Below the pieces are notes generated by a model that ran no database searches, was not told where the DNA came from, and saw only the letters and a program-made list of their open reading frames with translations. The position numbers and the translations under genes are program-made. 64,000 nt of DNA from a virus. Shown here in pieces: positions 3,610 through 29,720 of the stretch. The first letter of the stretch is position 1, and every line of letters starts with the position of its first letter. The DNA is taken from positions 1 to 64,000 of IMG/VR virus record IMGVR_UViG_3300049460_000150; one strand, given 5' to 3'.

Positions 3610-4510
3610 AGTTTTGAGTGAATGCGATTGAGGTGCCAGCGATAGGCAGATTGGCCGTTTCGCCGCCAAGCAGCGTGGCTTGCGTTACGACGCCAGCCGA
3701 CAGAATACTGACGTGCAATGTCTGCCCGGTGGCGAAGTTCAAATCGTACTCACCAGCAGTCAGCGTGATAGGGTTAAAGTTGATGAAGGTTTGGAACTCT
3801 TCTTCTAACGTTGCAGGGTACGAGATTCCAGTGAACAGACTGGTCGGCTGTTTGTACGTCTGTGCTGGCGTACCCATCGGCAGGTCGGGAGGCGCGGCGC
3901 TGTAGTTCAACTCTCCGTTGTCTGTGAATGGCGAGCTGTACCACGCGGCGGGGGCGCTATCGAACAAGCCAGCGTCGGTGTCAAACGAGATGTACTGACC
4001 GTAGGCTTTGCGACGACCGTAGATCATTGGAATGCGCGTACCAATTGCCACGGTGTTTCGACCGTTGCCCAGGTAGCGGGATTTTTCTGCTGTTGAGCTG
4101 TTGATTGAAGGCTGGGGAGCCAGCAGTTGCATGACCCCTCCCAGGATCATCATGGCCCCGGCCAAGTACATGGAACCTGTGGCGGAAAGACCGCCAGAGG
4201 CGGTCAAGGATGCGCCGCCTGAAATGTAGGCGGCAGCAATGATGATGATCCCGATGATGATTTGTCCGACGCCTGGGCGTCCGGCACCAGCCATCACCGG
4301 ATGAACGTGCAGCTCCCCTACTTCCCTCCGTTCAAAGATGGCATCGGCAGAGTCGAAGCCTTCGACCCTGACCATGTGGCGTCCGTTGACAGGTTTAAGT
4401 GCCGGGATCAGCGCCAGGGATTGCAGCGCTTCGGCGGCAGAATTGGCTTCAACCCGGATCGGTTCCGGGTGAAGGCTCTGGAGGTATCCGTGTAGGATTA
4501 TCGTTGTCAT
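3602..4510 (-). CDS. I: Tail assembly protein I-like
   Basis: Lambda gpI-type tail-tip assembly protein. The start at MTTIILHGYL is preferred over an ATG 14 codons upstream because the family begins with this beta-strand segment and because it shortens the overlap with the JAMM gene to 62 nt. Residues 1-75 form the tail-assembly-protein fold. A glycine/isoleucine-rich hydrophobic hairpin follows at about residues 80-130 (IIIGIIIIAAAYISGG), as in other I proteins. The 3' third is longer than lambda gpI (223 aa) and has an extra domain of unknown role. It lies between the K-like genes and J, as in lambda. Confidence 0.85.
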   Translation of the reverse strand: MTTIILHGYLQSLHPEPIRVEANSAAEALQSLALIPALKPVNGRHMVRVEGFDSADAIFERREVGELHVHPVMAGAGRPGVGQIIIGIIIIAAAYISGGASLTASGGLSATGSMYLAGAMMILGGVMQLLAPQPSINSSTAEKSRYLGNGRNTVAIGTRIPMIYGRRKAYGQYISFDTDAGLFDSAPAAWYSSPFTDNGELNYSAAPPDLPMGTPAQTYKQPTSLFTGISYPATLEEEFQTFINFNPITLTAGEYDLNFATGQTLHVSILSAGVVTQATLLGGETANLPIAGTSIAFTQNYG

Positions 4511-12585: not shown

Positions 12586-12610
12586 AAAAAACCCCCGCAC
12601 TTGGCGGGGG
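12586..12610 (-). terminator. Intrinsic terminator after the major tail protein gene
   Basis: On the minus strand a 7-bp GC stem (CCCCCGC / GCGGGGG) with a 5-nt loop is followed by TTTTTT. It lies about 25 nt after the tail tube stop and should limit readthrough from this highly expressed gene. Confidence 0.85.
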
Positions 12611-12636
12611 TAAGGTGCAGCTAGGGGTGCAACGAA

Positions 12637-13443
12637 TCAGTCCAGAATCATGCCCTTGGCCGGGGTGCCGTTGGCACCGATGGTCTGGAACAGGGCGAAG
12701 TGCGGGTCGGCTTCGACCAGATCGTAGATTTCCAGTTCGAACGGGATGTGGTCGAAATTGTCGGTCTTGAAGGCCATCGACAGGCCGGACTTGACGCGCA
12801 CTTTCGGGAACAGCATCGGCACGGTGTCGCCGTTCGCCAGGGTGCCGACGATCTTGCACGACAGGAACGGTGCGTTGTCCTGGGAGCCGACCGCGATAAC
12901 GTTGACCTTTTCGACCTTGGCACCGATGCCAAGAGCCATCGGCAGGCCGGAGTCCATTTGGATGCTCTTGGCACCAGCGTCAACCGAGATGATTTTGCGG
13001 ATCATCACGTTGTCGTCCTTGCCGGTGTGGACCAGGACGAAGCTGTCAACGGTCAGGCCGACAACAGCGGCCAGCAGCAGTTCGTCGTCGCCGACTTCGG
13101 CGGGGGCAACCGGCGCGGCGTAGGCAGTTGCCAGGGTGGAGCCAGCGGTTTGACGCACGAATTGCGCGCCGTCCAGCGAGAGCGAATACGCCAAGTTCGA
13201 TGGCGTGTATTCGTACATCTCGGCGGTGATGCCAACCGCGTTGCTGTTCATCACGGAATACACCAGCGAGTTACGGATGCCTTGGGTCAGCTCCACGAAG
13301 CCGGGAGTGGTCTTGGTCGTGACGTTCTTTACCAGACCGACCGAGTTCGCGTCGGTCAGATTGAAAAGTGCGTCCTGGGGGCCGAGCATAATGGTCGCGC
13401 TACCCAGCATGAAATCGGTTGTCTTTGCTGCGCCTTGGGTCAT
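12637..13443 (-). CDS. V: Major tail (tube) protein
   Basis: Subunit of the tail tube, in the lambda gpV position between the tail terminator and chaperone genes. It has 268 residues, beta-rich, with the tube-protein features TQGIRNSLVYSVMNSNAVGITAEMYEY near residues 55-80 and a C-terminal part ending in IPFELEIYDLVEADPHFALFQ. Codons are strongly C-ending, as expected for high expression. It has its own leftward promoter (13491-13519) and is closed by a strong terminator. The RBS is GGAGAACC. Confidence 0.88.
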   Translation of the reverse strand: MTQGAAKTTDFMLGSATIMLGPQDALFNLTDANSVGLVKNVTTKTTPGFVELTQGIRNSLVYSVMNSNAVGITAEMYEYTPSNLAYSLSLDGAQFVRQTAGSTLATAYAAPVAPAEVGDDELLLAAVVGLTVDSFVLVHTGKDDNVMIRKIISVDAGAKSIQMDSGLPMALGIGAKVEKVNVIAVGSQDNAPFLSCKIVGTLANGDTVPMLFPKVRVKSGLSMAFKTDNFDHIPFELEIYDLVEADPHFALFQTIGANGTPAKGMILD

Positions 13444-13481: not shown

Positions 13482-13510
13482 TTGCAACAGATTCTAGTCG
13501 ATGCTATGCT
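13482..13510 (+). promoter_or_regulatory. Rightward promoter of the RHH regulator gene
   Basis: TTGCAA (13482-13487), 17-nt spacer, TATGCT (13505-13510). It drives the plus-strand regulator gene starting at 13552. It overlaps the leftward major-tail promoter head-on, so the two cannot easily fire together. Confidence 0.6.
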
Positions 13511-13519
13511 CGATGGCAA
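13491..13519 (-). promoter_or_regulatory. Leftward promoter of the major tail protein gene
   Basis: Minus-strand TTGCCA (plus positions 13514-13519), exact 17-nt spacer, TAGAAT (13491-13496), about 45 nt before the tail tube ATG. It overlaps the rightward regulator promoter, and its -35 is next to the 15-bp palindrome. Confidence 0.6.
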
Positions 13520-13521
13520 CT

Positions 13522-13536
13522 GGTTTAATTTAAACC
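13522..13536. promoter_or_regulatory. 15-bp palindromic operator GGTTTAATTTAAACC
   Basis: A perfect inverted repeat with 7-bp arms and one central base. It lies just downstream of the rightward -10 and just upstream of the leftward -35. Position and symmetry fit an operator for the ribbon-helix-helix protein encoded 16 nt further on, allowing autoregulation and control of tail-tube transcription. Confidence 0.6.
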
Positions 13537-13551
13537 ATATTAGGGGATACC

Positions 13552-13794
13552 ATGAGTACGATTCACAGGGACGGAAAGCCCATCGAGGGCGATGGAAGCG
13601 ATAAAACTCACGCCGCATTTAGCGTGAGGATTCCTATCGAGCTTCTGGACCAGATTGATGCACGCCGGAAGGTGTCAAAACGCAGCCGCAACAAAGAGAT
13701 CGAAATGCTTCTCGAAAGGCAGATTGAAGCTGAGGTCGAAAGGGATCAGCTTATGATCGACAAAATAGCTAAGATGAACCTCACTCCGCCATAA
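13552..13794 (+). CDS. Arc/MetJ-type ribbon-helix-helix regulator on the opposite strand inside the late operon
   Basis: 80-aa DNA-binding protein. Residues 20-55 match the ribbon-helix-helix pattern (AAFSVRIPIELLDQIDARRK, then SKRSRNKEIEMLLERQIE): a short beta strand followed by two helices. It is the only plus-strand gene in the first 23 kb. It has its own promoter, palindromic operator and RBS (AGGGGATACC), and its 3' end overlaps the tail terminator gene by 14 nt tail to tail. It is a moron-type insertion and probably a repressor of itself and possibly of the major tail promoter. DNA targets beyond the local palindrome are unknown. Confidence 0.8.
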   Translation: MSTIHRDGKPIEGDGSDKTHAAFSVRIPIELLDQIDARRKVSKRSRNKEIEMLLERQIEAEVERDQLMIDKIAKMNLTPP

Positions 13795-14233
13795 AGCAAT
13801 TCGTCTTAAAGCCTACCATCACGAACTGGACAGGGCGCGAAGAGTCGCCCCCCACTGGTAAAACCCGCACGCCGTCCTGCACGATCAAGAGTCCCTTCTT
13901 TTCCCCTGTCTGGAAATCCAAAACGTCGATGGTTTTCATCGGTTGCAAGCGTTGGAAAAGACGCGCTACAAGTTCACGCAAACGAAACAGGTTTGTGTCA
14001 CCCTCTGTGGCAACGCCAATCATCACGTCAACGTCCACAAATGGGTGACTGGTGGAGAGGGACAAGCCAGAGGTGCCGATCAGGTCTCCTTCAGGAACAG
14101 TGTTCTCGTCCGCGTGGGCGTCGAAATCTTCGTACTCCAACGGGCTGGATTGGGCGGTGCCCCAATCGACGCAAAAGCGCTTAATACTAGCGTCGATATC
14201 CATCATCAAAAGTTGTTCACCCGGTACGGCCAT
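13781..14233 (-). CDS. Tail terminator protein (gpU-like)
   Basis: Candidate tail terminator that caps the tube and joins it to the head, assigned from position directly upstream of the tail tube gene and from size (150 aa). It includes a HPFVDVDVMIGVA strand near residue 63 and a central LFRLRELVARLFQRLQP helix. The ATG overlaps the preceding stop by one base. Its last 14 nt overlap the convergent regulator gene. Primary-sequence similarity to gpU is weak. Confidence 0.6.
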   Translation of the reverse strand: MAVPGEQLLMMDIDASIKRFCVDWGTAQSSPLEYEDFDAHADENTVPEGDLIGTSGLSLSTSHPFVDVDVMIGVATEGDTNLFRLRELVARLFQRLQPMKTIDVLDFQTGEKKGLLIVQDGVRVLPVGGDSSRPVQFVMVGFKTNCFMAE

Positions 14234-18522: not shown

Positions 18523-18972
18523 TTAGGCCATTTTGTAGGCCGAAGCCTTGTGAACCGTGGCGGTCTTGTCGTCGCCGGTGCCAGCGTCAGTGCCTTGGGC
18601 CTTACCGCCGCCGAATGCTGCCGAGAGTTTATCACGGTTGACATCGATGGAGGCCGTCAGCTCGGCAAAAGTTGCGGTTTCCGGCAGCACGGCCACGCCT
18701 GCCGCCACGCTCAGGCGGTCGGCTTCTTTACGCACGTAGGCCAGTTGGGTTTTCATGGCGTCGGTGGCAGCGGCCAGATCGGTGACAGCCTTGGTCGCGT
18801 CAGCAGGCACAGCGGCCAGCTTGGCGGTCAGGTCGTTGACCTGGGTTTGCAATGCGGCTTTGGCCGTGGTCAGCTCGGCGTTGGCAGCGGTCAGGGTCGT
18901 CACCTGATGCAGCGCGACAGCTTTGTCTGCGGTCAGATTCGCGTTGAGCGTTACGAGTTCTTTGATTTCCAT
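18523..18972 (-). CDS. Internal-start scaffolding protein candidate
   Basis: In-frame internal ATG at residue 242 of the protease gene (MEIKELVTLNANLTADKA), preceded by GGAG with 7-nt spacing. It would give a 149-aa coiled-coil scaffold, the arrangement known from lambda C/Nu3. Evidence is the well-placed Shine-Dalgarno and the sharp change from protease to low-complexity helix at this point. Confidence 0.55.
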   Translation of the reverse strand: MEIKELVTLNANLTADKAVALHQVTTLTAANAELTTAKAALQTQVNDLTAKLAAVPADATKAVTDLAAATDAMKTQLAYVRKEADRLSVAAGVAVLPETATFAELTASIDVNRDKLSAAFGGGKAQGTDAGTGDDKTATVHKASAYKMA

Positions 18973-19695
18973 CTTTTGCTCCGGTTTCGTCGGTTGGGTC
19001 AGTGGGGATTGAGCGAATAATACAGTGGCTTCGGGACTAACGCCAGTGGCCGCTAGTTTCTCATACGCTTCGTTGCCCATCAAGGACTTCGTGCGCGAAA
19101 GAATCTTGGCATTCTTGGCCGCGCCGAGCGAGACCAGCGAGGTCTCAAGCCAGCGGGCCATGCCGGACAGGATAACGTGCGTGCCGTCCTTGCCGATTTC
19201 GTGACCCTCGTTGCAGACGAGTCCATAGATGTTGTCAGAGGTCGCTTCCGCGCCCAAGTAATCGAAGCCGCAAACCGAGCAGTTGAGGTGCTGGGTTGTG
19301 AGGCCCACCGAGACCTCTTCGATGGAGCCGGTGTCAACGCCAGAAACCAGAGGGGCTTGTGTGTTATCGATGAAGAACTGGGCGCGCAGCTCAGGAAGGC
19401 CCTGTTCATTGGTGATCTTTTCACCGTCGAAAACGCGACCCACAGGCAGCTCGTAACCTTGCTCATGCAGCGTGTGCAAAGGCACGAAGCCGCCGCCGTG
19501 TACAAAGTCAGCCATTTCCTGAAGCGTGGCTTCAGTGGTCGTGGCACCATTAAACAGGCCACGCTTATTGATAGGCAAAGTGTTCAGCGCTATGGTCTCG
19601 AACACGCTGACTTTTGAGGTGTCGAATTCGGCATCGCCGGTAGATTTAACAATGGCGGCGCGAATCGACGGGGTGATAGTGAGGGCTTTTGGCAT
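18523..19695 (-). CDS. Prohead protease with C-terminal scaffold domain
   Basis: 390-aa capsid maturation protease followed by a scaffold-like region. The protease half (residues 1-235) has a His in PLHTLHEQG (near 74-80) and a Ser in GSIEEVSVGL (near 122-131), the usual His/Ser arrangement, plus a possible zinc knuckle (CSVCGFDYLG and LVCNEGHEIG). Residues 242-390 are an Ala/Thr/Leu-rich coiled coil (TAANAELTTAKAALQTQVND), typical of scaffolds. Preceded by a TTGAAA-17-TATAAA promoter. Confidence 0.85.
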   Translation of the reverse strand: MPKALTITPSIRAAIVKSTGDAEFDTSKVSVFETIALNTLPINKRGLFNGATTTEATLQEMADFVHGGGFVPLHTLHEQGYELPVGRVFDGEKITNEQGLPELRAQFFIDNTQAPLVSGVDTGSIEEVSVGLTTQHLNCSVCGFDYLGAEATSDNIYGLVCNEGHEIGKDGTHVILSGMARWLETSLVSLGAAKNAKILSRTKSLMGNEAYEKLAATGVSPEATVLFAQSPLTQPTKPEQKMEIKELVTLNANLTADKAVALHQVTTLTAANAELTTAKAALQTQVNDLTAKLAAVPADATKAVTDLAAATDAMKTQLAYVRKEADRLSVAAGVAVLPETATFAELTASIDVNRDKLSAAFGGGKAQGTDAGTGDDKTATVHKASAYKMA

Positions 19696-19720
19696 GATGT
19701 TCGCAATCTTACTCTAAGGG

Positions 19721-19749
19721 TTTATAGGAGGCAAAAGGTTTTATTTCAA
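19721..19749 (-). promoter_or_regulatory. Leftward promoter for the protease-capsid module
   Basis: Minus-strand TTGAAA (19744-19749), exact 17-nt spacer, TATAAA (19721-19726), in the gap between portal and protease genes. This is the best-formed promoter of the left arm and would feed the protease, decoration and capsid genes. Confidence 0.65.
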
Positions 19750-19752
19750 CCA

Positions 19753-23052: not shown

Positions 23053-23069
23053 GGATGATACTATCATCC
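23053..23069. promoter_or_regulatory. 17-bp palindrome GGATGATACTATCATCC, left operator
   Basis: A perfect inverted repeat with 8-bp arms in the divergent control region, between the leftward terminase promoter and the rightward promoter. An identical copy and four imperfect ones lie at 29.6-30.2 kb. A repressor or activator site is inferred. Confidence 0.7.
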
Positions 23070-28548: not shown

Positions 28549-28562
28549 TGTGGCACGGTAGC

Positions 28563-29461: not shown

Positions 29462-29584
29462 CTCGCGTTTTTCTGTGGATAGTTTTTCTGGCCCTGTGAA
29501 TAACTTATTTTTGCCTAAAAAATAGGCAGAAAACAGCGTTTTTTGTGGATAAGTCGGTGGATAACGCTAAAAAGCTGTGGATAA
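29364..29584. other. Cluster of seven DnaA-like boxes, candidate replication origin
   Basis: Four perfect TTATCCACA boxes (29364; reverse strand at 29453, 29544, 29576), one TTATTCACA (reverse, 29495) and two with one mismatch (29474, 29556). Six of the seven point the same way. An A/T-rich stretch with TTTTTGCCTAAAAAATAGGC lies among them. The density in 221 bp is far above chance and matches the architecture of DnaA-dependent origins. The flanking non-coding DNA has further repeats and palindromes. Confidence 0.75.
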
Positions 29585-29588
29585 ACCG

Positions 29589-29605
29589 GCTTGATAGTCT
29601 CATCC
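29589..29605. promoter_or_regulatory. Operator-like site 1 of the GGATGATA family (imperfect)
   Basis: GCTTGATAGTCTCATCC: right half conserved, left half degenerate. Directly follows the last DnaA box. Confidence 0.45.
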
Positions 29606-29703: not shown

Positions 29704-29720
29704 GGATGATACTATCATCC
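29704..29720. promoter_or_regulatory. 17-bp palindrome GGATGATACTATCATCC, perfect right copy
   Basis: Identical in all 17 bases to the site at 23053, in the origin-like region. Confidence 0.7.

Follow-up and report, generated by a model that had tools for sequence, protein, structure and literature searches.

What does a gene for a small DNA-binding protein do when it lies against the direction of a phage late operon? The question is raised by the window analyzed here, bases 1-64000 of a 79,112-bp IMG/VR virus record. On its plus strand, an open reading frame at 13552-13794 encodes an Arc-like ribbon-helix-helix (RHH) regulator of 80 amino acids, recognized by Pfam, PHROG, and PDB profile matches and by synteny. 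The gene is antisense to the late operon of this 79-kb siphovirus record. A preliminary description of the DNA had named it the sole plus-strand gene of the left arm. This appears to be so within positions 1-23051, where the other plus-strand open reading frames overlap larger minus-strand genes.

The RHH gene of that description is real. Searched alone, its protein matches the Pfam Arc family with an E-value of 6.8e-4, slightly below the gathering score, and also matches PHROG families of Arc-like repressors. A profile built from 27 relatives matches the structures of Arc, AmrZ, and Mnt at 1e-4 to 2e-6 in a PDB profile search, the best match being AmrZ (3qoq, 2.3e-6). The AlphaFold2 (AF2) monomer model has a pLDDT of 85, with both helices predicted at high confidence; the strand pairs only in the dimer. 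The best folds for this model are Arc and AmrZ (TM by target of 0.76-0.80), none of them significant in Foldseek (E > 0.1). Its sequence places the window protein in the Arc-type RHH family.

Arc and Mnt are classical repressors. The present protein shares with these P22 proteins the fold and sequence family (Arc-type RHH, PF03869), a small size, and the N/T-x-R contact pattern of the beta-strand. Autoregulation by an operator placed between closely spaced promoters would be a further likeness, in the present phage a predicted one. The P22 genes lie in the immI region with ant, whereas the gene in the window is antisense inside a virion operon. A reading as a P22-type immI region (Arc/Mnt/ant) was rejected because no antirepressor gene ant is adjacent and the neighbors are tail and head genes. 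The antitoxin of a type II toxin-antitoxin pair was also rejected as a reading, because no toxin or partner gene is found in the same operon. The RHH gene stands alone, with opposite-strand genes on both flanks, in the window and in Achromobacter phages JWF and 2-1.

On one flank is the tail tube protein gene (12637-13443, minus strand), which belongs to PHROG 28493, a family of unknown function in PHROGs. Its AF2 model has a pLDDT of 90 and is closest in fold to the solved tail tube structure of phage Mystique (9n71, TM 0.81), which confirms the earlier naming of this gene. An intrinsic terminator follows it at 12591-12611 on the minus strand. Terminators are annotated at the same place in JWF and Caulobacter phage Seuss, and in both phages another is annotated after the capsid gene. 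The tube and capsid genes thus appear to be promoter-to-terminator units, which a regulator such as the RHH protein could set. On the other flank, a gene at 13781-14233 (minus strand) occupies the position of a tail terminator. It had been called one, a name left unconfirmed by searches of Pfam and PHROG, which gave no family match. This gene and the RHH gene overlap convergently at their ends by 14 bp (13781-13794), as do their counterparts in JWF and 2-1. A terminator scan found no terminator-like site nearby downstream of the RHH gene, and antisense read-through is possible.

The arrangement is not peculiar to the window. Tail tube relatives are found in Xylophilus phage Lumi, in JWF, 2-1, and Seuss, and in others. 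Direct IMG/VR searches with the RHH or tail-tube protein alone gave no matches; searching and aligning with the capsid protein gave 84 further loci. An antisense RHH open reading frame lies just upstream of the tube gene in 48 of the 68 loci or records with a recognizable tail-tube gene, a count that includes a few near-duplicates (36 are non-redundant). In JWF, 2-1, Lumi, and Seuss, it sits between the tube gene and the preceding gene; it is annotated as Arc-like in JWF and as hypothetical in 2-1, and is unannotated in Lumi and Seuss. A second look at the 20 loci initially scored as without the gene found an antisense open reading frame of 71-113 amino acids at the same place in at least 13. 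Some of these have a C-terminal stretch like 'SFTLRLP...TRQQAFQIAV' that looks RHH-like and has a weak or no RHH score. In Pseudoalteromonas phage KB12-38 and the Acinetobacter phages, the tube locus leaves no room for an RHH gene. Loci L071, L066, L073, L075, and L083 and the L046-L059 group have a longer antisense protein (103-140 amino acids), which may hold two tandem RHH domains. Some relatives lie within bacterial contigs, namely those of Burkholderia paludis MSh1 (L096, 290 kb) and Inquilinus limosus (L095, 120 kb), and a temperate lifestyle is therefore possible for members of the group. JWF has been called temperate (PMC9959647).

Between the RHH and tail-tube genes, two candidate promoters face each other across the same ~35 bp. 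The candidate RHH promoter, TTGCAA-17-TATGCT, is on the plus strand at 13482-13510 (TTGCAA at 13482-13487, TATGCT at 13505-13510) and has counterparts in Lumi and locus L015. The tail-tube promoter, TTGCCA-17-TAGAAT, is on the minus strand at 13491-13519 (TTGCCA at 13519-13514, TAGAAT at 13496-13491), and its position is conserved in relatives. The preliminary description had given both promoters as overlapping, and they were found as described. It had also placed a perfect 15-bp palindrome between the leftward -35 and the RHH gene. The palindrome is present there, but its actual length is 17 bp (13521-13537). This candidate operator, TGGTTTAA-T-TTAAACCA (8+1+8), has GGTT-N7-AACC half-sites. 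Judged from the hexamers, it would lie at about -37 to -53 relative to the tube transcription start and at about +5 to +21 relative to that of RHH. The minus strand also carries a terminator-like hairpin at 13607-13628, inside the RHH coding region and just before the tube promoter along the direction of late transcription.

The promoter matches alone are not beyond chance. The tube promoter agrees with the consensus at 10/12 positions, and 3 such matches were found versus 2.7 expected in 7.6 kb; the rightward RHH promoter, at 8/12, is under the threshold of the same scan. Significance from consensus alone was rejected, and the case therefore rests on comparison. In Lumi and L015, the nearest relatives, the best promoters of the two strands likewise form a face-to-face pair (TTGAGA-17-TAGAAT with TTGCCT-17-TATCAT, and TTGCCA-18-TATAAT with TTGCAC-17-TATTAT, respectively).

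The relatives also have paired AACC half-sites, of which the window operator is an inverted version; the spacing within these pairs is fixed at 10-11 bp. AACC-N6-AACC occurs between the RHH start and the tube gene in 11 of 36 non-redundant regions, against a shuffle mean of 0.095 and a maximum of 1. Among the spacings of AACC pairs, 10 bp stands out with these 11 cases, and no other spacing rises above 3. In 11 of 17 anchored sequences, the best tube-ward promoter begins 1-2 bp after the second half-site, whereas the operator lies anywhere from 15 to 71 bp away from the RHH start codon. About one third of the RHH phages have no clear operator. In Achromobacter phage JWF, PJWF_00017, annotated as an 'Arc-like DNA binding domain protein', has the orthologous position and orientation and is 49% identical to the window protein over 45 amino acids. 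The JWF tube promoter, like that of the window, has half-sites upstream of its -35 (ACC-N7-ACC). PJWF_00017 differs in that it is annotated by domain only, its half-sites are direct and not inverted, and the head-gene promoter of JWF is without a clear operator.

Contact residues and operators vary between lineages. Paired ACC half-sites accompany 16 of the 23 proteins with an Arg at the Arc R13 position and 0 of the 13 others (Fisher p 5e-5), an association that is not significant after correction for kinship, reflects mostly one split in the capsid tree, and was rejected as independent evidence. Phages whose RHH protein has a different DNA-contacting strand have a different motif common to both of the promoters discussed below. 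In the L046-L059 group, a conserved AGGTA-N-TAACCT palindrome precedes the tube ATG by 20-40 bp and probably overlies the promoter, and this closeness to the tube start might suit repression.

A palindrome search of the window gave two exact or near copies (<=3 mismatches), versus a shuffled-window mean of 0.09. The second is a candidate operator, TGGTTGAAATAAAACCT, on the minus strand at 19736-19752, with 3 mismatches to the palindrome. It sits in the short gap before a head gene (18523-19695, minus strand) and abuts from upstream the -35 of a second late promoter, TTGCCT-17-TAAGAT (19706-19734, minus strand). Two bases separate AACC from this -35, a geometry identical to that at the tail tube. 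The head-gene site reads TGGTTGAAATAAAACC-tt-TTGCCT-17-TAAGAT, and the tail-tube site reads TGGTTTAAATTAAACC-ag-TTGCCA-17-TAGAAT. The head gene belongs to PHROG 37797 and is protease/scaffold-like, with a C-terminal coiled coil; 2 of its 19 relatives match Phage_scaffold (best 2.8e-6), and one weakly matches the Phage_GPO scaffold peptidase family. On the late strand of the 79-kb genome, the composite 'AACC-2 nt-TTG-17-TA' occurs only at the tube and head-gene promoters. Under a Markov model of the genome, ~0.025 sites with 3 mismatches that abut an 8/12 promoter would be expected by chance per genome. A third match in the genome, at 72554-72570, was rejected as an operator because it is within an open reading frame and has no abutting promoter.

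Motif sharing between the tube and head-gene promoters is also seen in other phages. In the window genome, Seuss, L073, L075, and L083, it scores higher than each of 150 shuffles, and in L039, L043, and L094 it reaches a shuffle p of 0.02 or below. The common motif in Seuss consists of TATGCAC repeats. Promoter-region pairs scoring 10.5 or more make up 18% of within-genome pairs versus 2% of cross-genome pairs. The Lumi head gene has a similar site by eye, TAGTTCAAAAAGAACCAT-TTCCCT-17-TAGGAT; the score test does not single out Lumi. Many JWF-like phages have a near-consensus head-gene promoter without an operator. In Seuss (L014), a small antisense gene, Seuss10 (4023-4211, 62 amino acids), also lies upstream of the second, head-gene promoter; no RHH signature was seen in it.

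These observations suggest how the locus may work. An Arc-family RHH dimer would bind the paired half-sites (here GGTT-N7-AACC) between its own and the tail-tube promoters, and the same dimer would bind the second operator copy before the head gene. That the RHH protein binds and controls these promoters is probable. In the window, Lumi, and L015, the face-to-face promoters share the same DNA, so that RNA polymerase at one of them shuts out use of the other. Protein bound slightly downstream of the RHH transcription start (about +5 to +21) should block RHH transcription, and this position suits autorepression. At about -37 to -53, where the operator abuts the -35 of both late promoters, binding would most likely help RNA polymerase. 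This placement, its near-constant spacing, and its repetition at the head gene without an adjacent RHH gene suit activation. The late promoters are sub-optimal, and bound RHH protein would aid RNA polymerase there. As its level rises, RHH would turn the site over from RHH production to tail tube production, and expression of the tail tube and of the head gene would be linked. Activation is the slightly favored sign of its action at the late promoters. For the model taken whole, in which an autoregulated RHH switch would activate the late promoters and repress itself, belief and doubt are evenly balanced. The preliminary description had held that the RHH protein could control the tube promoter and itself through an operator between the face-to-face promoters. 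Comparison lends this support, as the arrangement is conserved across very divergent phages. The description had not foreseen a second late promoter with an operator, and a site upstream of the -35 is no less suited to an activator than to a repressor.

Known systems offer partial parallels. Lambda CI at OR2 combines class II-like activation with autoregulation, and one operator next to the -35 serves one promoter positively and blocks another. CI is an HTH protein that acts at divergent promoters, whereas here an RHH protein and overlapping face-to-face promoters are involved. Unlike those of P22 Arc and Mnt, the present candidate operators lie upstream of the -35, at the tail-tube and head promoters. 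Among RHH proteins, AmrZ both activates and represses and is a precedent for both signs (PMC3325190). AmrZ of Pseudomonas represses its own promoter and activates another, a behavior only proposed for the present protein. It differs in being a host regulator with a C-terminal oligomerization region and other operators, and it controls no phage late genes.

The main rival to activation at the late promoters is repression. As a classical Arc-type repressor, the RHH protein would use the same operators to hold down, or later shut off, its own promoter together with the two late ones, and virion genes would be delayed, limited, or silent in a prophage. Such a role would be in keeping with Arc and Mnt, with the location of the operator in the promoter overlap region, with the L046-L059 palindrome close to the tube start, and with the temperate life suggested by JWF and by relatives in bacterial contigs such as that of B. 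paludis MSh1. However, in the window, Lumi, L015, and the JWF group, the operator covers neither the -35 nor the -10 of the late promoters, and it abuts the -35 from upstream at a nearly fixed spacing that a pure repressor would not need. Repression is possible but rather unlikely.

The activating reading must also be weighed against accounts in which the RHH protein does not act at these sites. The sequence upstream of the -35 could be an UP-element or other RNA-polymerase element of the late promoters, with RHH acting elsewhere. The site is AT-rich and located where contact by the RNA polymerase alpha subunit is possible, and the same element is found at a promoter without an adjoining RHH gene. 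What makes this improbable are the GC-containing half-sites with exact 10-bp spacing, the 17-bp perfect palindrome of the window, and the different motif shared by the two promoters where RHH has a different DNA-contacting strand. It is also conceivable that the convergent RHH transcript acts mainly as antisense RNA or by collision with upstream late transcription, the protein being secondary. The two genes overlap at their ends in JWF and 2-1 as in the window, and the scan showed no terminator-like site just after the RHH gene. Both features would allow this, but the RHH motif of the protein is kept through great divergence in 48 loci, which antisense RNA would not need. This account is highly improbable.

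Other palindromes and repeats were noted in these genomes. A perfect 17-bp palindrome, GGATGATACTATCATCC, occurs twice in the window (23053-23069 and 29704-29720), one copy immediately before the minus-strand terminase gene, which is the first late gene, and the other in a non-coding stretch; it is a candidate operator for another regulator. Several DnaA-box-like TGTGGATAA repeats are intergenic at 29540-29600, beside a GGATGATACTATCATCC palindrome, and this region is a possible replication origin. Palindromes of the form GGTCCCG-N4-CGGGACC, with varying loop and arms, lie at 28561, 28600, 29039, 29298, 42743, and 44346 of the window, mostly in or near intergenic early-region DNA. In L011 and L012 (phage JWF), the palindrome GGTTCGTAACGAACC is repeated at record positions 69009, 71215, 75034, 77592, 78614, and 81403, just upstream of early gene starts, and has the same half-sites as the window operator. 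It is also present in L032, another JWF-like record, and Burkholderia relatives have GGTTCAACTTGAACC. The JWF palindromes of the early region are possible additional RHH operators, but the palindromes that other phages carry in that region are unrelated.

In an open-literature search, no paper turned up that describes an RHH regulator within a late operon of a phage, nor any published account of late-gene control in JWF-, Lumi-, or Seuss-like siphoviruses. The RHH gene is absent from the text of the paper describing Lumi. Read from sequence comparison, the locus places a known DNA-binding fold at a regulatory position that is widely conserved and had not been described. In its broadest form, the proposal is that an Arc-family protein is the dedicated late-gene activator of the whole siphovirus group. 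One antisense gene in the tail-tube promoter would turn on the tail-tube and head units through operators abutting the -35 and shut itself off through the same operator, and operator sequence and RHH contact residues would change together between lineages. This generalization is plausible, though doubted somewhat more than believed. The overlooked RHH gene, missed in deposited genomes, is probably a switch for virion genes. The group is widespread and includes JWF-, Lumi-, and Seuss-like siphoviruses of Burkholderiales, Caulobacter, and others, for which a single candidate regulator, its putative binding sites, and two target promoters are now named. The lineage-specific operators provide natural pairs for studying RHH specificity, and whether an Arc-family protein activates virion genes can now be tested directly.
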